Shown here: one piece after another, positions 48,563-64,000 of the stretch
How the letters are laid out: every line of letters starts with the position of its first letter
Numbering within the stretch: position 1 is the stretch's first letter
From: Rubrivivax gelatinosus IL144
GTDB lineage: Bacteria > Pseudomonadota > Gammaproteobacteria > Burkholderiales > Burkholderiaceae_C
Length of the DNA: 64,000 nucleotides
NCBI RefSeq assembly: GCF_000284255.1
Contig: NC_017075.1
Location: 1,798,001-1,862,000 of the forward strand
Direction: 5' to 3'
Program-made: the position numbers and the translations under genes
Notes under the pieces: generated by a model
Told to the model about the DNA's origin: nothing
The model's database searches: none
Seen by the model: only the letters and a program-made list of their open reading frames with translations

Positions 48563-49363
48563 TCAGTTGGTTGTTGCGGGGTTCGCTCCGGCCTGGTTAA
48601 CCAGGCCGGAGCGGCGCTTGGTCCGCAGCCGGTAGCTGTCGCCGCGGATGGTGAGGACGTGGCTGTGGTGCAGCAGCCGGTCGAGGATGGCGGTGGCGAC
48701 GACGGCGTCGCCGAAGACGCCGCCCCACTCGGCCACCGAGCGGTTGCTGGTCACGAGCATCGAGCCGCGCTCGTAGCGGCGGCTTACGAGCTGGAAGAAC
48801 AGGTGTGCGGCGTTGGCCTCGAACGGCAGGTAGCCGAGTTCGTCGACGACCAGCAGCTTGGGCTTGGCGAAGTGCACGAGCTTCTCCTCCAGCCGGCCTT
48901 CGACGTGCGCCCGCACCAGCTGCGTCACCAGGCTCGTCGCTGGCACGAAGAGCGTGCTGTAGCCGCGCACGATGGCCTCGCGCCCGAGAGCGACAGCCAG
49001 GTGCGTCTTGCCGACGCCGGGCGGCCCGAGCAGCAGCACGCTGTCGCCGTTGGCAACCCAGCGCGAGGTGGCCAGCTCGCGGATCTGCTTGGGGTCCACC
49101 GACGGCTGCGCGTCGTACTCGAAGCCCTCCAGCGTGCGCACGCAGGGGAACTTGGCGATGGACATGCCCATCTGGATGCGCCGCTCGTCCTTGCGGGCGA
49201 CCTCGGCCGCGCACAGCATCGACAGCGCCTCGCGCAGGTTCAGCTCGGCCCGCGCGGCCTGGTCCAACAGCGTGTCGAGCTGGTCTCGGATGGCGGTGAG
49301 CTTGAGCCGCGTAAGCATGGGCTCGAGCGCGTCGAGTTCCTCGGTCTTCTTCGACGCGGCCAT
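48563..49363 (-). CDS. istB: IS21-family IstB ATPase
   Basis: The 266-residue AAA+ ATPase has Walker A GPPGVGKTHLAVALG, Walker B LLVVDELGYLPF and sensor TSNRSVAEW. IstB stimulates IstA and helps choose target DNA. Its ATG overlaps the istA stop by one base (TGATG). The frame continues open further upstream, but that part is the istA shadow. The gene is intact. Confidence 0.95.
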   Translation of the reverse strand: MAASKKTEELDALEPMLTRLKLTAIRDQLDTLLDQAARAELNLREALSMLCAAEVARKDERRIQMGMSIAKFPCVRTLEGFEYDAQPSVDPKQIRELATSRWVANGDSVLLLGPPGVGKTHLAVALGREAIVRGYSTLFVPATSLVTQLVRAHVEGRLEEKLVHFAKPKLLVVDELGYLPFEANAAHLFFQLVSRRYERGSMLVTSNRSVAEWGGVFGDAVVATAILDRLLHHSHVLTIRGDSYRLRTKRRSGLVNQAGANPATTN

Positions 49364-50667
49364 CACCAGCTTCCTCCGGCGACGGCCTCGTACTGATCGA
49401 GCGGGCGCTGCAACTCGCCAGGCACCGGGGCTATCGGCGGCGGCATCTTCGGTAGCCACGTCATCCCGGCCAACTGGCCGCCGACGATGCCCACCAGGTG
49501 GCTGCGCTCGATGACGCTGCAGCGCCGCAGCGCGCTCTGCGCGTGGCAGGCCACTTCCTGGCCGGCGTAGAGCACTCGCACCTGACGCTCGGCGACGACG
49601 ACGGTGACCGTCTCGCCGATGAGCCGCCACGGCACGCTGTAGCGGTTGGTGTCCAGCTCGATACAGGCGTCGGTGTGCACGCGCCGCGTGACCTCGCGCA
49701 CCTGCAGGAACGGCGCCTTGGACGGCAGCGGCCGCAACGCGGCGCGCTCGTGCCGCTCGAAGCGCTGCAGCGGCGGCTCGCCGGTGCTGCCGTGGATGCG
49801 CACGTCGGCGACTTCGCGCACCCAGCGCTCCAGGTGCGCCTGCAGTTCCTCGACGCTGGCGAAGCGGTGCCCGGCGATGGCGTTGCGCTTGACGTAGCCG
49901 ACGCCACGCTCGTCCTTGCCCTTGGTCCGCGCGCGATACGGCGCGCAGGCCCGCGGCGTGAAGTCCCAGTAACGGCAGAACGCGTGGAAGCGGTCGTTGA
50001 AGCGCACCTCGCGCGTCTGCGCGTTGTGCTCGGTGACCAGCGGCTTGGCGTTGTCCAGCAGGACTTCGTGCGGCACGCCGCCGAAGCGCCGGAAGGCGCC
50101 TTCCAGGCCGTGCAGCCACGACGACTGGCGCTCATGCAGGAAGACGGCGACGTGACAGCGCCGGCTGTAGCCGAGCGTGGCGACGAACAGGTGGATGCGC
50201 AGCGGCTCGCCGTCCACGATGACTGACGTGCTGCCGAAGTCGATTTGCAGTTGCTGGCCGGGCGCGGTCTCGTAGCGCACTGTGGCCACGCTCTCGGCCC
50301 GCAACTCCCGACGCAGCGGCTCGACGGCACGCTGGACGGTGCGCAGGCTCACGCGGATGCCCAGCTCTCGCTGCAGGTCCTGGCGCACGACGTCGGCGTT
50401 GCCGCGGTGCTGCCGCAGCCGCTCGGCCAGCCACTGCCGGTGCGGCTCCAGGACGCTCTCGCGGTGCGTCGTGCGCATCGGCCGCCAGCCGCCTTGCCGC
50501 AGGTACTCGCGCACCGTGTTGCGGCTGCAGCCCAGTTCCCGGCTGATGCGCTTGGCTCCCCATCCCAGCGCCTGCAGCGCCAGCATCTTCTGCACCTCCT
50601 GTGGCGCCAGCATCGTGTCGCTCCCCGGGCCTCGTTGGACCGGCTGAGCTTGGAACACTTCCTCCAT
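49363..50667 (-). CDS. istA: IS21-family IstA transposase
   Basis: The 434-residue protein has an N-terminal helix-turn-helix (AKRISRELGCSRNTVREYLR) and an rve core with acidic residues in LQIDFGSTSV, LLDNAKPLV and KGKDERGVGYVKR. It cuts and joins the element ends. GGAGAGG before the ATG at 50667 supports this start; a second ATG is at 50613. The frame is intact. Confidence 0.94.
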   Translation of the reverse strand: MEEVFQAQPVQRGPGSDTMLAPQEVQKMLALQALGWGAKRISRELGCSRNTVREYLRQGGWRPMRTTHRESVLEPHRQWLAERLRQHRGNADVVRQDLQRELGIRVSLRTVQRAVEPLRRELRAESVATVRYETAPGQQLQIDFGSTSVIVDGEPLRIHLFVATLGYSRRCHVAVFLHERQSSWLHGLEGAFRRFGGVPHEVLLDNAKPLVTEHNAQTREVRFNDRFHAFCRYWDFTPRACAPYRARTKGKDERGVGYVKRNAIAGHRFASVEELQAHLERWVREVADVRIHGSTGEPPLQRFERHERAALRPLPSKAPFLQVREVTRRVHTDACIELDTNRYSVPWRLIGETVTVVVAERQVRVLYAGQEVACHAQSALRRCSVIERSHLVGIVGGQLAGMTWLPKMPPPIAPVPGELQRPLDQYEAVAGGSW

Positions 50668-53198: not shown

Positions 53199-55937
53199 AT
53201 GAGACCTTCCCTCAACCCGTCGGCGCTGACCAAAGAGCGCTTGACCGAGCTCTTCGATTGCCTTGGTGTGCCCCCGCAGGGGCGGCAGCTTGTCCAGCGC
53301 GCGATGGTCGAGGCACCCGTACGCGATGTGTACAGCAGTGGCCGCAACGTCGTTTCGCACTTCCACAGCCGCAAGAACGGCACCTGGATCGGCACCGAGA
53401 GCCGGCACGTTGAGTTTCCTGCAGCGGTCGTCTACGAGAACGACGCCAAGACGCTGGCCTACTTTCCCCAGCCCTTCACACGGGTCATCGAGCACGTCGA
53501 ACCCGATAGCGGCGAGGTTCATACCCTGCGCTACACGCCGGACTTCTTGGTGCTGCGCGACGACGGCATCACCGTCGTTGAGTGCAAGCCCCATGCGACG
53601 CTCCTCAAGGAGTCAGCGAAACGCCCCTTCAAGTACCGGCTGGCAGACGACGGGAGCTGGTACTCGCCACTTTTCGAGGCTGTGTTCGGCGAACTGGGGT
53701 TGCAGTATCGCGTCATCTCGGACTTGGCCTTCTCGAAGGTCTGGGTCGAGAACTGCCTGCACTTGGCCGACTACTTGGGCGAAGCGGCGGAGCCGTGTCC
53801 AGATGAGGTCTTGACGCAGGTGCGCGCGCTGCTTGCTCAAGAGGGACGGATGACGCTGCATGAGCTAGTCAATGCCCCGTACAGCTTCTCTGCTGACCAC
53901 TTGCTCAAGGCCGTCGCCGACGGTGCTCTCGTCGCAAACCTGCAAGAAGAGCCTCTGTACGAGCCGCGCTGCGCCTGGCTCTATCGCGACGAGGTCTATC
54001 GAGACTTCGTGCTCTCGCAGCGGGATGTTCGCCGTCCCGGCAAGCCGAGCTTTGTCGTCGACATCGGACCAGGGGCCTTGTTCAGGTACAGCGGCGAGAC
54101 CTTGACCGTTGCCCTCGTCTCCGATGACCGGGTGGTCTTGAACAGACCGACCGGCGGGACGTTCGACGTCAGTCGAGAGTGGTTGCTCCGCGCCCTAGAA
54201 GGAGGTCAGGTGGAGTCGGTCGCAGGTGCAGACGGCGGACAACTGCGCTTCCACGACTACTCGGATGCGCAATTGGCGACGGCACTACATCGCAGGCGCC
54301 AGTTGGAGGGGGGAACATTTGGAGCGCTCCCCAGTGCGCGAACCATGAGCCGGCTGCGTGCTAAGGAGGCTGCTGCACGTGCTTCGGGAGGCAACGAGGA
54401 TCTTGCCCTGGTCCCGATGACCCATCTGCGTGGCAATCGCACGCCCCGACTGGATCCAGCCTTGGTGGAGATGATGAGGCAGGTCCACCAGAGTGAATGG
54501 AGAGACGCCTCGGCAAAGAACTATCGCGCGTGCCACAACGCGCTGGTGGCGCTGTGCGCCAGCAAGGGCTTGAAGGCGCCCTCGTATCCGACCTTCATCG
54601 GCTTCATCAAACGCGCGGGCAGCGACGCCGACGTTCGCATCCGGCAAAGCTCTCGGTATGCGTACCAGCAGCAAGCCTTTGTCGACTCGATCGAGTACGA
54701 GGCCCCGGTTCACGGTAGCCGGCCGCTGCAGTACGTCCACATCGACCACACGCAGGTCGACCTGGAGTGCCTCTCCTCGCGCACGGGCCGGCCTCTCGGC
54801 CGGCCTTGGTTGACCTTGGCTGTCTGCGCGACGACTCGCGAGATCGTCGGCCTGTACTTGACCTTCGAGCCGCCATCGTACCGCTCGGTAATGATGGTCA
54901 TTCGCGACATGGTCCGACGTCACGGGCGGATGCCCGAGTTCGTCGTTGTCGACAACGGGTCCGATCTGCGCAGCATGGCGTTCGCCGCGTTCCTGCAGAT
55001 GATGGGCACGCATCTGCGTGCGAGGCCAAAGGGCTCGCCGCGCCATGGCGCCGTGATGGAACGGCTCTTCGGCAAGGCCAACACCGAGTTCATTCACAAC
55101 CTGGCTGGCAACACCAAGGCGACGAGGCACGTCCGCATGGTCACCGGGAAGTCCTTGCCAGTCAACAACGCTGAGTGGACCCTGGAGAGTCTCTACTACG
55201 GACTCTGCTACTGGGCGTTCACGCACTACGCCGAAGCCGATCATCCCGCGCTGGCCGCGTCTCCGAAGCACACCTTCGAGCGTCTGCAGCGCGAGTGCGG
55301 GAGCCGCCCGCAGCGGCGGGTGCTGTTCAACCGCGACTTTCTGATCGCGACATGTCCGCCCGCGGATCGCGGTGGTGTCCGCATGGTCAACCGCCAGACC
55401 GGTGTGAAGGTGTTTGACCGGTTCTACTGGCACCAGGCTTTCCGCGATGCCGCTGTGGCGGACACCCAAGTGGATGTGCGGTACGACCCCTTCGACGCCA
55501 GCTCGGTGTACGTGCGTGTCAAGCAGCAGTGGGTTCAAGCACGCCATCGCGCACTGGCTCAGCTGCCGTCCATGTCTGAGGCGGCGTTCAAGACTGTCAG
55601 CGAAGAATACCGTCGTCGCTTCAAACCTTCGGTCAACCAAGAACACGATCTCCAGCGACTAGTCGAGTTCCTCTCGACGTTTACACCGGAGGGCGCCACC
55701 GCGGCGCACATGGAGCGACTTGCTCAGAGTGAGTCCTTGGTGGCGCAGTTCGGGGATGGCCCGATTACGCCGCCTGAGCGCGCGACTGGACCGCAGTACC
55801 TCGCCAGAGGGGCGGTGTCTGAGCCTTCGCTGAAGGCGCCCAAGTTCGCCGATCTCGGTACCAAGTCCGCCGACTCACAGCCTGATGCGGCCTCCGGGCA
55901 ATCTGAACCGCTTCTCGACGACTTTGACAGCTTTTGA
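53199..55937 (+). CDS. Tn7-like TnsA-TnsB fusion transposase
   Basis: The 912-residue protein joins two transposase activities. Residues about 60-200 form a TnsA-like nuclease: E72, D115 in YTPDF and E128-C-K130 (VVECKP), the PD-(D/E)xK set that cuts the 5' ends. Residues about 400-850 form a TnsB/Mu-type integrase: D516 (YVHIDHTQ), D585 (VVVDNGSDL) and E621 (HGAVMERLFG), with D-35-E spacing, followed by a Mu C-terminal beta-barrel. The tail DDFDSF resembles a TnsC-contacting end. TnsC and TniQ genes follow at once. Fusions of TnsA and TnsB are known in some Tn7-like groups. Both catalytic sets look complete, predicting cut-and-paste transposition. Confidence 0.9.
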   Translation: MRPSLNPSALTKERLTELFDCLGVPPQGRQLVQRAMVEAPVRDVYSSGRNVVSHFHSRKNGTWIGTESRHVEFPAAVVYENDAKTLAYFPQPFTRVIEHVEPDSGEVHTLRYTPDFLVLRDDGITVVECKPHATLLKESAKRPFKYRLADDGSWYSPLFEAVFGELGLQYRVISDLAFSKVWVENCLHLADYLGEAAEPCPDEVLTQVRALLAQEGRMTLHELVNAPYSFSADHLLKAVADGALVANLQEEPLYEPRCAWLYRDEVYRDFVLSQRDVRRPGKPSFVVDIGPGALFRYSGETLTVALVSDDRVVLNRPTGGTFDVSREWLLRALEGGQVESVAGADGGQLRFHDYSDAQLATALHRRRQLEGGTFGALPSARTMSRLRAKEAAARASGGNEDLALVPMTHLRGNRTPRLDPALVEMMRQVHQSEWRDASAKNYRACHNALVALCASKGLKAPSYPTFIGFIKRAGSDADVRIRQSSRYAYQQQAFVDSIEYEAPVHGSRPLQYVHIDHTQVDLECLSSRTGRPLGRPWLTLAVCATTREIVGLYLTFEPPSYRSVMMVIRDMVRRHGRMPEFVVVDNGSDLRSMAFAAFLQMMGTHLRARPKGSPRHGAVMERLFGKANTEFIHNLAGNTKATRHVRMVTGKSLPVNNAEWTLESLYYGLCYWAFTHYAEADHPALAASPKHTFERLQRECGSRPQRRVLFNRDFLIATCPPADRGGVRMVNRQTGVKVFDRFYWHQAFRDAAVADTQVDVRYDPFDASSVYVRVKQQWVQARHRALAQLPSMSEAAFKTVSEEYRRRFKPSVNQEHDLQRLVEFLSTFTPEGATAAHMERLAQSESLVAQFGDGPITPPERATGPQYLARGAVSEPSLKAPKFADLGTKSADSQPDAASGQSEPLLDDFDSF

Positions 55938-55954
55938 CTTTGAAGACCCGCGCT

Positions 55955-57010
55955 ATGCAAGTTTCCACTGATACCCCTACGCAGTCTCCTGGGATGCCTC
56001 ACGCAGAGCGCCGCGTGACGGCAGACCACGCCGTGACGGCGCTCTCGGCACATCGGGTTCGCCATCCGCGCATCACTGAACGCCTCAACGACTTGTCCGC
56101 CCTGATGTACCCGGTGAGCACTGACGACATCATCCTCGTTTGCGGGCCTTCCGGAGTCGGCAAATCGACGCTGTCCAGGTTCTTGGTCGAGGACGCGGTC
56201 AGAGGCTCCCAGGCGGCGATGAACCGGGATGCAGGTCTCGTTCCAGCCATCTACGTCGAGGCACCCAGCTCGGGGGAACGCGAGTTCAGTTGGGCGCTGC
56301 TGTACCAGAACATCCTCAGCCAACTCGAAGGTGAGTTGCCGATGCGCCGGCATGCCTACAGCGTAGATCCGGCAACGAACCGCCTGTCGATTCTTCCGGG
56401 CTTGAGCCCCAACAGCCTGGCGGCGCTTCGCACCGCTGTCGAGCGCGCGCTCCGCGATCGGGGCACCACCCATGTCGTCATCGACGAGGCTGCACACATC
56501 ATGCAGCACCAGAACACTCGGCGGCTGACGGCGAACATGAACACGCTGAAGTCCTTGTCCAACCGTTCCGGCGCGCAGTTCGTGCTGAGCAGTTCGTACG
56601 ACCTCTTCCAGATGATGAGCTTGTCCGGGCAGCTTGCGCGTCGAACCCAGGTCCTTCACTTCGATCGCTACCGCCAGGACAACGATTCGGACGTGCGCGC
56701 GTTCCGAAGCTGCGTCCAGTGGTTCGAGAAGCAGCTGCCCGAGCTGTTCGCCGGTCGGCTCTTGCCCTACAGCGAGGTCCTGCACGACAACGCCCTGGGC
56801 TGCATCGGGACGCTGCGAGACGTGCTCACTCGTGCTGCGCGCTTCATGGCCGCGAAGGGTGGCTGGTCGCCAGAGCTGCTCCGGCGGTGCTTGCTCACAG
56901 ACGCACAACACAAGCGGATCTTGGAGGAGATCCTCGAGGGCGAAGAAGCCATCAACCCCGGCATCTCTCATACCGCGATCCGGCCGCGCAGTCCGAAGAA
57001 GGCCGCTTGA
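55955..57010 (+). CDS. Tn7-like TnsC/TniB AAA+ ATPase
   Basis: The 351-residue ATPase has Walker A GPSGVGKST (64-72) and Walker B VVIDEAAH (174-181), plus the TniB-like stretch YVEAPSSGEREFSW. TnsC assembles on target DNA and couples the target selector to TnsAB. It starts 17 bases after the TnsAB stop (an upstream TTG is also in frame) and ends immediately before the TniQ ATG, so the three genes form one operon. Confidence 0.92.
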   Translation: MQVSTDTPTQSPGMPHAERRVTADHAVTALSAHRVRHPRITERLNDLSALMYPVSTDDIILVCGPSGVGKSTLSRFLVEDAVRGSQAAMNRDAGLVPAIYVEAPSSGEREFSWALLYQNILSQLEGELPMRRHAYSVDPATNRLSILPGLSPNSLAALRTAVERALRDRGTTHVVIDEAAHIMQHQNTRRLTANMNTLKSLSNRSGAQFVLSSSYDLFQMMSLSGQLARRTQVLHFDRYRQDNDSDVRAFRSCVQWFEKQLPELFAGRLLPYSEVLHDNALGCIGTLRDVLTRAARFMAAKGGWSPELLRRCLLTDAQHKRILEEILEGEEAINPGISHTAIRPRSPKKAA

Positions 57011-58357
57011 ATGATCACCCCGCTTCAAGTCTCGCCTCTACGCTCGAGCCTCCACGCGCTGGCGCCCATGGGGCTCGGCACCCCGGATGTCGAGAGCCTC
57101 GTGAGCTACTACTGCCGCCTGGCTGTCTCGCATGCCACGACGACCGATGAACTCGGGCGCTTCGTCGCCCAGGCAATGCGTCTCGAGTTGGCGCCCGAGT
57201 TTGACTGGCACGCTCGCCAGCTCTCCGGTCTGCGTGATGCGGCGATGAGCTGGTCGTCGGCCTTGTCGGCGCTAACCGGCGTCGCAGGTCTAGACGGACT
57301 GACGTTCTTGCCTTGGCGCGAGGTCATTGCGCAGAACGGACGCTCGCTTGTCGCGTCTGGGCAGTACTGCCCGCTGTGCTTTGCCGAGGACCTCCAGCAG
57401 GCTCGCAAACCGTACTTCCGCCTCGCGTGGGAGTCTTCGCAGTCGACTGTCTGTCACCGCCACGGTACGCAGTTGCGGCAGCAATGCCCGTCCTGTGCAA
57501 GGACGAACATTCGACATGCCGCTGCGGTGGTCGTGCCCGGCTGGTGTACGAAGTGCGGCGAGTTCCTGGGGCGCGCGATTGAAGATCCGATTCCGCAGGC
57601 AGACGTTGGCGCACTTTGGAAGGCTCGGCAGATCGCGCAGTTGGTGGCCGCACAGCATTCGCTGACGACGCAGCCTTGCCGAGCCTCGATGCTCCGAGCC
57701 GTAGAGCAGATCATGGCGGCTATGGACGGCGGCCAGGCCGCAGCGTTCGCGCGCCGCCATGGCTTGGGGAAGAGCACTGTGCACCACTGGCTCAAAGGCC
57801 CAGGTACACCGAAGCTCGACGTCAGTTTGAGCATCGCGCTCCACAGCGGATTGAGCCTGGTTCACTTGCTTACCGGAGACTTGAGCAACTGGACACCGCC
57901 AACGTGCAACGCCCAGCTTGCCCTGCCGCTCGAGCTGCCGGCCCGGCCGGATCGGGCACCGGCTCGGCAGCTGGATTGGGGTGACATCGAACAGCAGCTT
58001 CAAGCGATTCTTCAGCTGCCCGAGCCCATCCCAGTCCTGGAGGTGGCGCGTCGCCTGGATGTCGAAGCGCGCCAGTTGTACTTGCGCGCCAACCGCTTGA
58101 CTCGAGAGCTGGGCGCGCGCTGGGTCTCGTATGCGCGCTCCCGCCGGGACCTGCGCTTGGCCGTTATAGGTCCGCACCTGGAGGCCATTGCTCGCGATGT
58201 GCTGGCCGAAGGCAAGTCGCTGAATCGGCGCGAGGTAGCGAAGCGCATCTCGCCTGAGATGCTGGCCAGCGTCCCGAGACTTGACGCAGTCTTGAAGGAC
58301 GTGCAAGTGCGGATGCTGGCCGAGCAGGGGGCCTGCGGGTCGGGAACCGCCCATTGA
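57011..58357 (+). CDS. TniQ-family target-selection protein
   Basis: The 448-residue protein has a TniQ N-terminal region (about 10-185) with paired zinc ligands C120-x2-C123, C148/H151, C159-x2-C162 and C179-x2-C182. Helix-turn-helix-like segments follow (AFARRHGLGKSTVHHWLKG; EVARRLDVEARQLYLRANR). TniQ/TnsD proteins recognise the target or, in CRISPR-associated transposons, link to Cascade or Cas12k. Its length and DNA-binding-like C-terminus favour direct DNA recognition. Its ATG follows the TnsC stop with no gap. No second TniQ or TnsD is visible. Confidence 0.9.
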   Translation: MITPLQVSPLRSSLHALAPMGLGTPDVESLVSYYCRLAVSHATTTDELGRFVAQAMRLELAPEFDWHARQLSGLRDAAMSWSSALSALTGVAGLDGLTFLPWREVIAQNGRSLVASGQYCPLCFAEDLQQARKPYFRLAWESSQSTVCHRHGTQLRQQCPSCARTNIRHAAAVVVPGWCTKCGEFLGRAIEDPIPQADVGALWKARQIAQLVAAQHSLTTQPCRASMLRAVEQIMAAMDGGQAAAFARRHGLGKSTVHHWLKGPGTPKLDVSLSIALHSGLSLVHLLTGDLSNWTPPTCNAQLALPLELPARPDRAPARQLDWGDIEQQLQAILQLPEPIPVLEVARRLDVEARQLYLRANRLTRELGARWVSYARSRRDLRLAVIGPHLEAIARDVLAEGKSLNRREVAKRISPEMLASVPRLDAVLKDVQVRMLAEQGACGSGTAH

Positions 58358-59108
58358 CGCGGCCCGGTGCCGCCATGTCGCGTCATGGGGCTGTCGCGTG
58401 TCTATACGGTGAGTACCTCTGCGACTTACGACATCCTGCAACGCGAGAAGCTGCAGCGTCCTGGCAAGGCGTCCTCGGCGAGGGCGATGTCGACCTCCGG
58501 CGCGGCGCGCCGGAGGTCAGTGTAGGCAGCGAGAAATCTGTCCTTGGCGATCGCCTTCGGCGATGCTCCCTGGACATGTCCAACGACGCTGTGGGCTTGC
58601 CGCCCCGGTACCGTGCGCTCGGTCTCTGGCAATCTGGCAGCGAGCGGCACGTTCAAGCGAGCTACTGTGGAGAGCAGCTTTAACAGCTCGGCGGTTGTCC
58701 TTGATGAACCGCGCTGCATGAAGATCAAGGGGGCCAACCGTTGCGCTCTGCGGCAGCTACGTAGGTACCAGCACTTCGCCCGTCCCGGCGGAGAGGCTGG
58801 GCCTACCCGCAACGCGGCGCCGAGCAGCAACCAGGCCGGAGGCTACGGCCTCCGGCAAAGCGCCACGCTTCAACAGATGCTCCGGGTAGGCCATACAGCT
58901 CTAGATGCCCGAGGATGGATCTACAGGCGAGGCTGCTGTCGACGACTCGATCTCGAATCGTCCCGTGCCCTCGTTGCCCAGGCGCTACGCGCCTTTACGC
59001 GGGAATGTGCACGTTGCCAACCGGGCCCAAGCCGTGGGTTGACCCTTGGCCGGTCAGGAAGAAGACTGGCCTCGTCGAGGGAGGCGCTGCCTCTCAAGGA
59101 GGTGTCGG
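58358..59108. other. Gene-free region after tniQ
   Basis: I find no convincing gene in these 751 bases. A 27-bp perfect palindrome lies at 58492-58518 (separate entry). A minus-strand frame at 58426-58830 has one protein-like stretch (KDRFLAAYTDLRRAAPEVDI) but no recognisable family or start. The right-hand part may hold decayed genes and the promoter of the HAD gene. Confidence 0.5.
58492..58518. promoter_or_regulatory. 27-bp perfect palindrome downstream of tniQ
   Basis: GACCTCCGGCGCG is followed by a single G and its exact reverse complement CGCGCCGGAGGTC. Thirteen paired bases with a one-base centre make chance unlikely. It could be a dimer or tetramer binding site, a recombination-related site, or a short hairpin. 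No link to a protein is established. Confidence 0.45.
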
Positions 59109-59648
59109 TTGTCACAGGTGAAGCTCGTCAAGGGGGCAGATGAGCGTCTGCTCTACCTCGACTTCGATGGCGTTCTACATCACGAAGCGGTGATCTGTAC
59201 GCGCAAGCGGGGCATACACGTCTCTCCGAGCGAAGCTCCCGGCCGGGTGCTGTTTGAGTGGCTTCCGCTGCTCGAGGAGGCGATAGAGCCGTACCCCGCT
59301 CTGAGGCTTGTTCTGAGCACGAGTTGGTGTGTGCGTCCTGGGTACGGCAAGGCTCTGAAGCGCCTGCCGGCAGCGCTGAGGCCGCGCTTCCTCGGTGGAA
59401 CGTTCCACCGTCGTGTCCACGGCCTCGCGCAGGCGGACTTCCGCGCGACACCGCGCTGGGCTCAAATCTTTAACGACGTACAGCGTCGCCAGCCGGCCGG
59501 ATGGCTAGCGGTTGACGATGACGTCGCGGACTGGCCAGCGAGACTGCGCCGGCATCTCGTGGCTTGCGAAGGGGACACCGGGCTCTCGGCGCCGGCTGCT
59601 CTAGAAGAACTGAGAAGCAGGCTGAGTGGGTTGTTCGATTCCAGCTGA
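59109..59648 (+). CDS. HAD-domain protein
   Basis: The 179-residue protein starts at TTG with AAGGAGG six bases upstream, which decides the start. Motif I is LYLDFDGVLHH, and LVLSTSW (motif II) and WLAVDDDVADWP (motif IV) follow, so the phosphatase active site looks complete. Proteins of this HAD subgroup are frequent in genomic islands of beta- and gammaproteobacteria and are uncharacterised. It lies between the transposition genes and the AbrB-type gene, as possible element cargo. Confidence 0.85.
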   Translation: MSQVKLVKGADERLLYLDFDGVLHHEAVICTRKRGIHVSPSEAPGRVLFEWLPLLEEAIEPYPALRLVLSTSWCVRPGYGKALKRLPAALRPRFLGGTFHRRVHGLAQADFRATPRWAQIFNDVQRRQPAGWLAVDDDVADWPARLRRHLVACEGDTGLSAPAALEELRSRLSGLFDSS

Positions 59649-60077: not shown

Positions 60078-60968
60078 TCAGTCGGATGCCATAGAGGTCT
60101 TCGGAAGGTAAGGCAACACTTCCGGCCTGTTGAGCAGCGCAATCTGCTGGGCCTCCGGAGGTGCCTCTTGTCCAGCAAGCAGTCCCAGCCGTTTGAGCGT
60201 GTAGAACAGCAGCGCTTGTCTGCAGTCGAGGGTGACTCGTCCGTTCGTCATACCGTAGTCCAACTCGATGACGCGCTGGGCCGCAACGGACAAAGCTGGG
60301 TTGGGGCCGAGCAGCAAGCTGACCTTGCGATGCCACGCCTCGTCCTTGTCGCCGGCGACAGCAGTCTCATCGGTAGCTCGTGCTTCGATGATGCGTGCAA
60401 TTACGAAGTCGAGGTACTGCTCTCGACGGTGGCAGTGGGCCCGGACGTGCCAGCGAAAGCCGTCGAACGCAATCGCATGCGGAGACAGGTGTCGTTCCAC
60501 GGGCTCCATTGATGACATTGACTGGTAGCTGACTTGAACCTGCTTTCCCTCACGTATGGCCGCCAGCAGCGGGAGCAGAACCTCGGCGGGGACTTGACGA
60601 CCAGGGCTGGCTGTCAAGCCTGTCGAGGGGGTCCAACCGATAAACGTCAGCTCGGGCTGGAGTACCCCGGCAGCCTGAGCCAGCAGTTCGTTGAGGAACC
60701 GCTGAGGGGTGTTGCTTGGGTAGAGGGGCTTGAACCGCTCCCCCGCCAGGTAGACCCGCGCGCTGCGGTCGTACACGGCATTGTCCGGAGCGAGTTCCAC
60801 ATATCTGGCGATGTCGAGCGACGCCTGTGGCACCGAGATGCCGAAGAACGTGGTTAGGTCGCTACGGTTGATGCGACCATCCCAGCGCAAGCGGACGTCG
60901 ATGAACTCCAGCCGACGTTCCTGCCCCCACCGACTGGTGGTCTTGGGCTGCTTGGGCGATTGAGTCAT
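60078..60968 (-). CDS. WYL-domain transcriptional regulator, BrxR/CapW-like
   Basis: The 296-residue protein has an N-terminal winged helix (about 15-60) with the pattern of BrxR/CapW repressors: GRINRSDLTTFFGISVPQAS then LDIARYVELAPDNAVYD. A WYL-type ligand domain follows (about 125-215; VSYQSM, RWHVRAHCHRREQYLDFVIARI) and a C-terminal extension. Such regulators repress phage-defence operons and are relieved by ligand binding to the WYL domain. It is divergent from the giant ATPase gene, with an inverted-repeat operator between them. The ATG at 60968 was chosen; the upstream ATG at 61037 would put the operator inside the gene. Confidence 0.88.
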   Translation of the reverse strand: MTQSPKQPKTTSRWGQERRLEFIDVRLRWDGRINRSDLTTFFGISVPQASLDIARYVELAPDNAVYDRSARVYLAGERFKPLYPSNTPQRFLNELLAQAAGVLQPELTFIGWTPSTGLTASPGRQVPAEVLLPLLAAIREGKQVQVSYQSMSSMEPVERHLSPHAIAFDGFRWHVRAHCHRREQYLDFVIARIIEARATDETAVAGDKDEAWHRKVSLLLGPNPALSVAAQRVIELDYGMTNGRVTLDCRQALLFYTLKRLGLLAGQEAPPEAQQIALLNRPEVLPYLPKTSMASD

Positions 60969-61008
60969 CTTGTGCGTGCTCGGCCGGGCGGGGCTGTCCG
61001 AACAGCCA

Positions 61009-61035
61009 GTATGCGTATAGAAAAAATACCCATAC
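61009..61035. promoter_or_regulatory. Inverted-repeat operator between the WYL regulator and the ATPase gene
   Basis: GTATGCGTAT (61009-61018) and ATACCCATAC (61026-61035) are inverted repeats with one mismatch and a 7-base AT-rich spacer. A further half-site GCATAC is at 61041-61046. TACAAT (61033-61038) resembles a -10 box for the ATPase gene, so binding here would block that promoter and probably autoregulate the WYL gene. Confidence 0.65.
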
Positions 61036-61082
61036 AATAAGCATACGGTCTCTCAAACAAGAAGGCAAGTCAAAGGGTGGCG

Positions 61083-64000
61083 ATGCAGGGACGAGCAACC
61101 AAGTACCAGCTTTGTCGAATGGTGCTCATTAACGCTGGGACGAACATGCATGTTCCCAGTGGGCGCATCACGGCGATCGACCCTCGAGGCGGGGCCGCAG
61201 TGCTTGGGGACAACGGGGTTGGCAAGACCACCACTTTGCGCATCCTCCCGCTCTTCTTCGGGCACCTTCCCAGTCAAATCGTTGCCGCTGGCCACGGCCA
61301 GGAGGCCATGGTTCGATTCGTCTTGCCGACCGACGCCAGCGCCATCGCCTTCGAGTACCAGCGTGGCTCGGACGCTGAGCATGACCTGCGCTTGGCTGTC
61401 ATCCGGCGGCGCGCCGATGACCCCGATGTGCCGTTCTACCGCCTGTACCGGTGCGGCTTCCGCAAGGAACTCTTCGTCGATGAAGGGCGGTTCCTGAGCG
61501 ATGACGAAACGCAGCTCAAGGCGACCGAGCTCAACATCCCGACCACCGGCAAGTTGACAACATCCGAGTACCGCTCGGTCATCTTGCGAACGCCGGCCGT
61601 CTCCAAGGAGCGAGAGAAGCTTCGCCGCTTCGCCATCGAGTGGTCATTCGGCCCCAAGCAGCTGGACAACCTGGACCGTGTCGTCGCGGCCATGGTGAAG
61701 AAGCACATCAACTTCGCCGACATTGTCCAGGTCGCGGTTAGCCTGGTTCAGCACGACCTGGGGCAGGGTGCCGAACGCGCCAAGCTGACGTTCAAGCAGG
61801 GGAAAGCGCCCATCGAGCGCTGGCTGCGTAACCGCGAGGCCTGCGCAGAGGCCTTCCGACTCGCGCCTGAGTTCGCCGAGCTGGATGACGACCTTCGCGA
61901 CCTCCGCGCTGCCGAAGCGCGTTACCGGGCATGCCGTGCTGACGTCGCCGCCCTGACGATGGCGCGCGTGCAAGAGGCCGACGGGCTGAAGAAGACGCTG
62001 GAGCACTTGGCGGCAAATCGGGCGGTAGCGCTTGAAGCCGAAGGGGTGAAGAGAACTGAGCTGGCGCGCGCCGCGTCAGCCGCCGCGAGTGAGTCGGCCA
62101 CTGCGAAGGCTGAGTTCGATGAGGCACACCTCCAGGCGCGACGCTTCGAGACGGGTAGGGCGGCCGATTGGGAGAAGCTCGTAGAGGAACTCCCGAGCCT
62201 GAAGGCTCGCGTCCAGACGCTCGAGTCCCAAGTTGGCGCGGCAGAGGCTGTGCAATCCGAGGCGACCGCCAAGTACGCAAGGCTGCAGGAAGAGGCCAAG
62301 ACCCGAACCAGCGAGCAGTGCCTTGCTCTGGAGCGCACCAAGGGTCCCCACCGCGAGCGATTGGCGGAAGCGCTCCGTCAGATTGCCGCCGCAGAGACGG
62401 GTGCTCTGACGCTATGCGACGAGGTGGCTGTCGCCCGACGGCAAGAGCTGGACGACCAGATGGAGCCCCTGCAGGGGCAGCGCGGCACCTGGGAGACGCG
62501 TCAGTCCAACCCCGCGGCCTCTGACGAAGCGCTTCGGGAGGTGCAGGAGGCTGAGACCCGGCTTGAGCGGCATCTGGGAGATGTCAATCAGGTCCAGCAG
62601 GTGGCTGGCACAGCCCAGACCGAGCTTCAGGCAGCAAGTCACGCGTTCGAGCGCCAAGAGGCAGAGCTGCGCAAAGCGCGCTCTGACTTGGCTTCGGCCA
62701 AAGCCCAGCATGCCGAAGCACTGGCGAGGCTCAACCCTCCAGAAGGGACGTTCCTGGCAGCCCTTCGGGCGCATCCAAGTGACGACTGGAAGCGCAATCT
62801 CGCGAAGGTTGTCAACCCGGAGCTTCTCAGCCGAGATGACCTGGACGTCGCCGCGGTCGAAGATGCGGCGAACACTCTCTACGGCTGGAGGCTCAACACG
62901 GGCGTTATCGGTGCGCCGGACTGGGCTGATGATGCGCTGGCGCGCCAGTCAGTCGAGACCGCCAGGGCAAGGGTGACCACGGCAGAAGCCAGGGTGGCGG
63001 AGCAAGAGGCTGAGCTTGCCAAGCGTGGCCGCAACCGTGACGACGCGACACTCAAGGTGCAGACGTCGCAGGCCCGGCTGGCCGTGCTTAAGAACCAGAC
63101 GGAAGAGCGCCGAAGTCAGCGCGACGCTGCCCGTCAGCGAGTCGATACGGAGAAGCGGAACGCCCGCGAGAGGGCTGCGGCCGAGCTGGCGAAGGTGCGG
63201 ACCGCCATTGACGAGTTCAAGAAGCAACTCAAGACGCTCGGCGTCGAACACGCCACCTCTCGCGCTGCCGTCAGGGCAGCACATGACAAACAGCGCGTCG
63301 ACGCCCAGCGGCTGTGCGACGAGGCCGTGGCCGCCATCGACGCCCAAGCGGCTCGACTCCAGCAAGAGCTTGAGGCGACGCTTCGCAGCCTCGCGGAGCA
63401 GCTGAACGAGCACCTCAACAGAGCGGGTGTTGATGTTCAGCGCCTCGACGGGCTGCGAACCGAGGTGAAGGGGCTGCGCAAGGGCATCCGCGAGCGGGAA
63501 GACAACCAGGCACTGGTGGAAGCCTGGAGGGTTTGGCTCAAAGCGGGCGGCGCAACGCGCGTTGAGACCCTTAAGGCGGCAGCAGCCAGGTCAGCTGAAG
63601 CTTCCCGGGTAGCGGCCGCAAAGGTCACCGAGTTCGAGCAAGCAGCCGAGAAGTTGGGCCGTGAGTACAACGCTACCGTGGCCTTGCATGAGCGTCGGCT
63701 GGGCGACGTCGCTGACGAAATCAAGGTCCTGCAGGAGATGGATGAGTCGTTCGGCGACTACCTGGCAAGCGGAACTTCCGTCATCGACCCGAACACCTCG
63801 GCTCGCGACCTGCGGTCTAAGGTGCGCACCGTCCGTACGGAAATTGACAAGCTCGAAGAGGCCATCAATCGACGGACCTCGACTCTGCGGCAGACCTTGA
63901 CCGCCAAGAACAGCCTGGTCAAGGAGTTGGTCGACACCAGCCTGGAACAGGCCAGCGGGGACGGCATCATCAGTCGCGCGACGGCGCTCTCCATTTGCTA
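61083..64000 (+). CDS. Giant SMC-like coiled-coil ATPase (3' end outside window)
   Basis: At least 972 codons are open from the ATG at 61083 to the window edge, with AAAGGGTGG before the start. The N-terminus is an SMC/RecN-type ATP-binding head: a strand (CRMVLINAGT), Walker A GDNGVGKTT at 42-50, and about 200 residues of globular head. Long heptad-rich helical stretches rich in Ala, Glu and Arg follow (about 260-860), interrupted by a small globular segment around 560-620. The signature and Walker B motifs must lie past the window. I do not recognise the family; it is not an obvious JetC, MukB or LmuB. The divergent BrxR/CapW-like regulator suggests a defence role. Confidence 0.85.
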   Translation, partial: MQGRATKYQLCRMVLINAGTNMHVPSGRITAIDPRGGAAVLGDNGVGKTTTLRILPLFFGHLPSQIVAAGHGQEAMVRFVLPTDASAIAFEYQRGSDAEHDLRLAVIRRRADDPDVPFYRLYRCGFRKELFVDEGRFLSDDETQLKATELNIPTTGKLTTSEYRSVILRTPAVSKEREKLRRFAIEWSFGPKQLDNLDRVVAAMVKKHINFADIVQVAVSLVQHDLGQGAERAKLTFKQGKAPIERWLRNREACAEAFRLAPEFAELDDDLRDLRAAEARYRACRADVAALTMARVQEADGLKKTLEHLAANRAVALEAEGVKRTELARAASAAASESATAKAEFDEAHLQARRFETGRAADWEKLVEELPSLKARVQTLESQVGAAEAVQSEATAKYARLQEEAKTRTSEQCLALERTKGPHRERLAEALRQIAAAETGALTLCDEVAVARRQELDDQMEPLQGQRGTWETRQSNPAASDEALREVQEAETRLERHLGDVNQVQQVAGTAQTELQAASHAFERQEAELRKARSDLASAKAQHAEALARLNPPEGTFLAALRAHPSDDWKRNLAKVVNPELLSRDDLDVAAVEDAANTLYGWRLNTGVIGAPDWADDALARQSVETARARVTTAEARVAEQEAELAKRGRNRDDATLKVQTSQARLAVLKNQTEERRSQRDAARQRVDTEKRNARERAAAELAKVRTAIDEFKKQLKTLGVEHATSRAAVRAAHDKQRVDAQRLCDEAVAAIDAQAARLQQELEATLRSLAEQLNEHLNRAGVDVQRLDGLRTEVKGLRKGIREREDNQALVEAWRVWLKAGGATRVETLKAAAARSAEASRVAAAKVTEFEQAAEKLGREYNATVALHERRLGDVADEIKVLQEMDESFGDYLASGTSVIDPNTSARDLRSKVRTVRTEIDKLEEAINRRTSTLRQTLTAKNSLVKELVDTSLEQASGDGIISRATALSIC

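Follow-up and report, generated by a model that had tools for sequence, protein, structure and literature searches.

A DUF3584-type SMC operon with a facultative toprim nuclease, divergent from a CapW-like regulator gene in Rubrivivax gelatinosus IL144

What kind of system begins with the very large SMC-like ATPase gene that runs off the end of a 64,000-nucleotide stretch of the Rubrivivax gelatinosus IL144 genome (NC_017075.1, positions 1798001-1862000, hereafter the window; the genome is one contig of 5.04 Mb), divergent from the gene of a WYL-domain regulator? A first-pass annotation, made from the letters of the window, had proposed an undescribed defence operon led by this ATPase. Reading on in record L003, whose position x is window position x + 60000, we found that the ATPase gene is followed by genes for a KITE protein, a kleisin (recognised by predicted fold only) and a toprim nuclease. 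The four-subunit complex is probably an MksBEFG/Wadjet-like cutter of circular DNA, whose condensin core would also serve a nuclease-free role. The four genes are as follows.

61077..64000, + strand: SMC ATPase (Pfam DUF3584), GTG start, first 974 of 1234 amino acids (aa); continues to L003:4781
L003:4778-5443, beyond the window: KITE protein, MksE-like, 221 aa
L003:5440-6675, beyond the window: kleisin, 411 aa, MukF-like by fold search
L003:6675-7520, beyond the window: toprim nuclease, 281 aa, DUF7281

The ATPase had been announced as longer than 970 residues and reading off the window; indeed, its frame is open for 974 codons from the GTG at 61077 up to the window end, and is complete at 1234 aa on reading further. 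The operon order is C-B-A-D (SMC, KITE, kleisin, toprim). Past position 64000, where the annotation had advised listing partner genes, these subunits are followed by Shango, a second TerB protein (TerB2) and Zorya. From the SMC gene through the TerB2 gene, the spacings are −4, −4, −1, 30, −4, 23 and 56 bases, with 402 more to ZorA, and such short or overlapping spacings suggest that SMC through TerB2 could form one transcription unit. Thus, the ATPase does lead an SMC-type complex whose partner genes PADLOC and NCBIfam do not name; the label "undescribed" fits these partners and fails for the rest of the stretch, which is Shango and type I Zorya. An NCBIfam scan gave no Jet name for the module (the presence of Jet models in NCBIfam was not checked), and among the toprim and kleisin relatives listed (120 of 229 and 120 of 189, respectively) any name given is "hypothetical protein" or "DUF7281 domain-containing protein".

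When the subunits were compared with known families, the SMC protein aligned over its full length with Pfam DUF3584 (E = 4e-137), and its head (residues 10-325) aligned with the type I JetC profile at a probability of 98.7, which overturns the statement that the head could not be matched to families of this sort. The profile match of the head to one MukB was weak (probability 84), that to one type II JetC was poor (probability 35), and the PADLOC match to LmuB covered only 24 residues at the P-loop (4.9e-6); two deliberately mismatched control pairs scored 0.1 and 0.8 in the profile alignments. The KITE protein matches Pfam MksE (PF21980; 32.5 bits against a cut-off of 27, E = 1.4e-7) and the JetB profile (probability 87). 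The toprim protein matches Pfam DUF7281 (E = 1e-21), the best alignments of its predicted structure are MksG and JetD, and it has the conserved acidic residues of a JetD-like toprim, the catalytic residues being invariant in 71 distinct toprims. A relationship to Jet proteins is accordingly seen at the profile level for three of the four subunits (SMC, KITE and toprim), the kleisin being the exception. The kleisin has no Pfam match; its structure model appears kleisin-like, being built of a helical N-terminal part, a bundle of long helices and a C-terminal domain, and its best 11 Foldseek matches are chains from MukF-containing entries. The annotation's placement of the system in a broad Wadjet or Lamassu sense is upheld on the Wadjet side by the JetD/MksG-like fourth gene and not on the Lamassu side, where a scan of ten operon proteins gave no LmuA match.

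Is this combination of genes constant? Using a toprim alignment, we gathered 52 loci (38 named ones, 13 stretches from 12 other genomes, and L003), which are not mutually independent; among the genomes of the phylum, 13 of 398 have the toprim gene, including the R. gelatinosus genome. With iterative profiles made here, SMC, KITE, kleisin and toprim were all found in 44 of the 52 loci, and the order SMC-KITE-kleisin-toprim holds in every complete locus (44/44). The eight incomplete loci comprise truncated or lone toprim genes (L035, L036, L039 and L050), a locus from Bacteroidota in which no kleisin was recognised (L055) and other layouts (L067-L069). Among the latter, the toprim gene comes first in L069:9635-15385, then an SMC gene of about 980 aa, with a CapW-like WYL gene divergent; this toprim matches JetD_C and, weakly, DUF7281, and the gene order in L068:4865-10735 is similar. 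The layout of L067:4966-10486 is a 424-aa protein, MksE, a 923-aa SMC and toprim.

Of 299 genomes from the phylum, 13 have a Pfam PF12128 match above the cut-off, and five of these 13 (L164-L168) carry SMC, KITE and kleisin genes without a recognisable adjacent toprim; L168 belongs to the genus of G216. The sets in L164-L167 (family f13) are presumably flanked by genes such as those for glutaminyl-tRNA synthetase, Ffh and RND pumps, names that we read from sequence. A small TerB-domain gene is next in three of them (L165:12009-12401, L166:7209-7781 and L167:11722-12141), with the Pfam cut-off exceeded in one of the three, possibly indicative of a recurring link between TerB and SMC, with TerB beside nuclease-less sets there and the Shango TerB proteins beside the nuclease-bearing module here. 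The R. gelatinosus genome has a separate canonical SMC elsewhere (a 1251-aa frame), and no JetD_C family member was found in it.

The nuclease is facultative within a single genus, which we take to be Shewanella because its member G412 is identical over 12,567 base pairs (bp) to the Shewanella morhuae record of L044. Among 60 genomes drawn evenly from a larger group, SMC was over the cut-off in 60/60 and KITE and kleisin were found in 60/60, and a genome-wide search found the DUF7281 nuclease in only 26. In 54 of the 60 genomes, namely 26/26 nuclease-positive and 28/34 nuclease-negative ones, the module is followed by one and the same symporter-like gene (sodium:dicarboxylate symporter is an inferred name, that Pfam family matching 3 of 136 flank proteins), and the trio sits mostly at this one core locus. 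Those 28 nuclease-negative genomes have kleisin and symporter-like gene on one contig, 302-865 bp apart, so that assembly gaps do not explain these absences. The ATPase residues are intact in all 38 nuclease-less SMCs, and selection on SMC, as a ratio to that on the symporter-like gene, is similar whether the nuclease is present or not (1.06 for 28 pairs and 1.18 for 17), which together suggest that the trio retains a function without the nuclease. MukB was over the cut-off in only 1 of the 60 genomes (the search was for MukB, not for canonical SMC). The first-pass annotation had named a housekeeping SMC with conserved synteny as the outcome that would undo its defence reading, and for Shewanella this outcome is partly what was found.

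How the nuclease came and went was followed on a quick tree of 74 SMC sequences (59 from Shewanella and 15 others). At least seven changes of nuclease state are required, seven being forced by the strongly supported branches alone; the 59 Shewanella rows account for six, or five when three replaced rows are set aside. These rows are G410, G426 and G431 (loci L242, L247 and L250), which carry an SMC of a remote lineage that groups with Ferrimonas L052, with the same symporter family adjoining; this looks like in-place replacement of the module. Parsimony counts give no direction of change; loss of the nuclease is demonstrated in one case, L210 of G421, where separated toprim pieces (41 aa, 95% identity, E = 6e-19) lie between the kleisin gene and the symporter-like gene, and the SMC, KITE and kleisin genes are intact beside this decaying remnant. 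Across 22 nuclease-positive genomes, toprim distances track SMC distances (r = 0.93, 0/1000 permutations; r = 0.96 for kleisin), which speaks for joint vertical inheritance and repeated loss rather than free shuffling. The median identity is 42% for toprim vs. 83% for SMC. A separate observation is that L262 (G462) has its SMC gene split into two frames despite the presence of the toprim gene. On balance, we lean towards a DUF3584 condensin lineage outside the PADLOC Wadjet types in which the toprim is facultative: it would have been lost several times at one fixed Shewanella core locus, with the condensin core kept under normal selection, the switch between cutter and condensin would be visible in progress within the genus, and a betaproteobacterial nuclease-bearing form would have moved to a WYL-controlled defence island.

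The control of that island bears on the features between the module and its divergent neighbour.

60078..61037, − strand: BrxR/CapW-family WYL regulator, complete open reading frame (ORF), 319 aa, TTG start, divergent from the operon
61004..61051, no strand: candidate operator, an imperfect inverted repeat with arms 61004-61018 and 61037-61051

The WYL gene is complete and of the BrxR/CapW kind, as first called: its product matches Pfam WYL (E = 4.5e-14), residues 34-310 match the solved CapW of S. maltophilia (7tb6, E = 3e-78) and residues 42-286 the solved BrxR (7t8k, E = 2e-42), the matches to solved CapW/BrxR regulators ranging from 3e-78 to 1e-28. The inverted repeat, the sole one in the intergenic stretch, is present as claimed, with arms longer and looser than the 10 bp first described (15 nucleotides, 80% complementary, 18-nucleotide spacer). 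It overlaps the first WYL codons if the TTG start is used; an in-frame alternative ATG lies 69 bases inside, which would move the start to 60968 and make the operator intergenic. Its score of 9, from a simple script, was reached by 0/100 mononucleotide shuffles of the 121-bp stretch (maximum 8), so the repeat is above chance, by a small margin over the shuffles. Both arms are nearly unchanged in the close relative L019.

On either side of these features lie further genes of an apparent mobile defence island.

48563..50667, − strand: two overlapping ORFs, which we take to be an IS21-type transposase and its helper ATPase
53199..55937, + strand: TnsA-TnsB fusion transposase, Tn7-like (Mu-transpos_C 5e-9, rve 7e-7, Tn7_TnsA-like_N 1e-4, PADLOC TnsB 1e-12; the rve and Tn7_TnsA-like_N matches are below their Pfam cut-offs)
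55934..57010, + strand: TnsC/TniB-like AAA ATPase (AAA_22 2e-19, TniB 9e-15)
57011..58357, + strand: TniQ/TnsD-like target selector (TniQ 4e-18)
59046..59648, + strand: HAD_SAK_2 domain protein, a HAD of the RNA-repair type (E = 7e-27), located between the TniQ and WYL genes and unmatched in PADLOC
L003:7551-10001: SngA, 816 aa (PADLOC E = 4e-109)
L003:9998-11302: SngB, 434 aa (PADLOC E = 2e-181)
L003:11326-13533: SngC, 735 aa (PADLOC E = 2e-270)
L003:13590-15533: second TerB_N/TerB_C protein, 647 aa (sole PADLOC match SngA, E = 1e-35)
L003:15936-17939: ZorA (E = 2e-261)
L003:17941-18645: ZorB (E = 9e-96)
After ZorB, to L004:5199: ZorC and ZorD (E = 2e-221 and 0)

The TnsA/TnsB, TnsC and TniQ genes of a Tn7-like element are all present, and PADLOC recognises both Shango (SngA, SngB and SngC) and type I Zorya (ZorA-D) nearby, which bears out the expectation of defence genes beside Tn7-like genes. 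The second TerB protein after SngC possibly makes this a four-gene Shango variant. Over the stretch that begins with the transposase genes and ends with Zorya, GC content is 0.62-0.64, vs. 0.709 in window positions 1-46000. The SMC module is likely cargo of the Tn7-like element, for which two scans found no convincing pair of ends around the cargo. As to arrangements elsewhere, Shango genes lie across the WYL gene from the SMC module in L021:1-4307 and upstream of it on the same strand in L026:135-3647; at L019:10860-16893 the module is followed by genes for 439-aa and 665-aa proteins and a ZorD-like helicase, not Shango. Anti-phage activity of Shango is reported as demonstrated in the available part of PMC10250203.

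What, then, would the module do? Since its four parts are the same as those of Wadjet, Wadjet logic, transferred, is the best guess; on the current view, JetABC detects circular DNA of small size through loop extrusion, and JetD cuts it (PMC10586767 and PMC10123090, available parts). By this analogy, the ATPase would be the motor of a complex of SMC, KITE, MukF-like kleisin and JetD/MksG-like toprim, made as one translationally coupled unit. A dimer of SMC dimers would load on DNA and extrude a loop, and once it had travelled all the way round a small circle, a double-strand cut by the toprim dimer would follow; the condensin core would thus be the sensor and the toprim an optional cutter. Because SMC-KITE-kleisin sets elsewhere keep or lack the nuclease, the core must presumably also have a nuclease-independent (condensin) role. 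The CapW/BrxR relative may keep the island off until signalled; repression has been demonstrated for BrxR, as the available part of PMC9122601 has it. The copy in this genome was probably acquired horizontally; it likely shares a single operon with Shango, and Zorya lies next to it.

A number of observations weigh against this cutter. None of the PADLOC Jet models of types I-III matched any module subunit at E ≤ 0.1; canonical JetC, JetD and JetA matched under the same conditions (an ORF taken as the L108 JetC did not), and six canonical JetD proteins all matched as type I. No subunit had a match among PDB sequences; profile alignments show at best a weak relation to type II Wadjet, and the comparison with type III was confined to PADLOC models. 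Most JetD proteins compared exceed the nuclease in length by about 100-130 residues. The kleisin identity is unsupported by sequence, as hhalign probabilities against type I JetA (0.9) and one type II JetA profile (0.3) are as low as those of the mismatched controls; its model has a predicted local distance difference test (pLDDT) value of 77, only fair, and template modelling (TM) scores against MukF are low (0.14-0.21), perhaps due to differing or uncertain relative domain placement, and VIA-align ranks unrelated helical proteins above MukF. The Shewanella locus is housekeeping-like, so that a pure defence reading misfits the family as a whole. Plasmid restriction by the module is suggested by analogy. 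In Cupriavidus necator, deletion of a putative type III Wadjet operon had no plasmid effect, so far as the available part of PMC12645576 reports, a caution that plasmid defence is not established by annotation alone; judged by its labels and order, that operon is not the present module.

The alternative reading that gains most from these data is an MksBEF-type condensin that organises the chromosome, with a toprim partner that would act in chromosome processing, e.g. in resolving entangled DNA, rather than in defence. The presence of the trio in every Shewanella genome sampled, the same symporter-like neighbour with and without the nuclease, SMC selection that without the nuclease resembles that of this neighbour, the near absence of MukB from these genomes and the f13 sets between housekeeping genes are all consistent with such a role. 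However, the copy studied here has a CapW-type regulator and shares low-GC DNA with Shango and Zorya, its genome has a separate canonical SMC, and the nuclease is dispensable and fast-evolving; we consider this reading rather unlikely. It is distinctly improbable that the SMC complex and Shango (TerB, a BrxD-like ATPase and a helicase) constitute one composite anti-phage machine: the toprim-SngA gap is only 30 bp, on the same strand and under one regulator, and L021 and L026, differently arranged, also have SngA and/or SngB beside the module, but SngA or SngB is near only 3 of the 52 loci, all that L031 and L066 offer is a strong SngC-like helicase, and the 20.8 kilobases of the close relative L019 contain no Sng match. 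A Lamassu-type system is disfavoured to the point of being scarcely credible; it could draw on the weak LmuB match at the P-loop and on a KITE match to LmuC at 0.009 (PADLOC), whereas none of the ten operon proteins scanned with PADLOC matches LmuA, and partners such as the KITE protein, the kleisin and the toprim are in keeping with a condensin or Wadjet. The MksBEFG/Wadjet-like cutter with a reusable condensin core therefore remains the reading that we favour.

Open-licence literature contained no mention of DUF7281, used DUF3584 and the terms Wadjet-like and type IV only in unrelated contexts and gave no account of an MksB-Shewanella condensin; most subscription papers were outside this scope, and an earlier description is possible. 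Nor was the module found in the available parts of open-licence literature on Shewanella and Wadjet. A condensin found in every Shewanella genome sampled, with a come-and-go nuclease at one site, makes the transition directly testable with close relatives, and may show how housekeeping and plasmid-destroying machines turn into each other.

Compared with known systems, the module shares with type I Wadjet (JetABCD/MksBEFG) an SMC, a kleisin, a KITE protein and a TopoVI-A-like toprim nuclease in one operon, as well as the nuclease fold. The Pfam profiles differ: type I Wadjet has PF13558, usually with PF13555 (five canonical JetC proteins match the former, four of these also the latter), DUF4194, DUF3322 with JetD_C, and the DUF3375 kleisin (in L105, JetB = PF13835, JetD = PF11795 + PF09983 and JetA = PF11855), whereas the module has MksE, DUF3584 and DUF7281, and a kleisin without a Pfam match. 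The Wadjet order is A-B-C-D (L105, L110) vs. C-B-A-D here, and the module, unlike Wadjet, has a shorter nuclease and core copies that lack it. With the Pseudomonas-type MksBEF it shares the MksE Pfam match, a MukF-like kleisin by fold search and nuclease-free versions; however, its SMC is longer (1234 aa, MksB being about 940 aa) and many members have a toprim gene. The likeness to MukBEF consists of the kleisin fold matches and a weak profile match between the SMC head and one MukB; PF12128 gives no match in an E. coli control, and MukBEF is not known to include a nuclease gene. The regulator resembles BrxR and CapW in sequence over most of its length, in its divergent position and in the inverted repeat; the spacer is 18 nucleotides here vs. 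5 described for BrxR in the available part of PMC9122601. Shango and Zorya adjoin the module without being constant components of it, and here Shango has the extra TerB_N/TerB_C protein after SngC. The DUF3584 module, the new part of which lies beyond the window, thus appears Wadjet-like by architecture, and is set apart because the curated Wadjet models do not match it and its gene order differs. If this holds, it would be a candidate fourth Wadjet-like type missed by the detection models used here, and an SMC nuclease tied to a CapW-type switch and to Shango.

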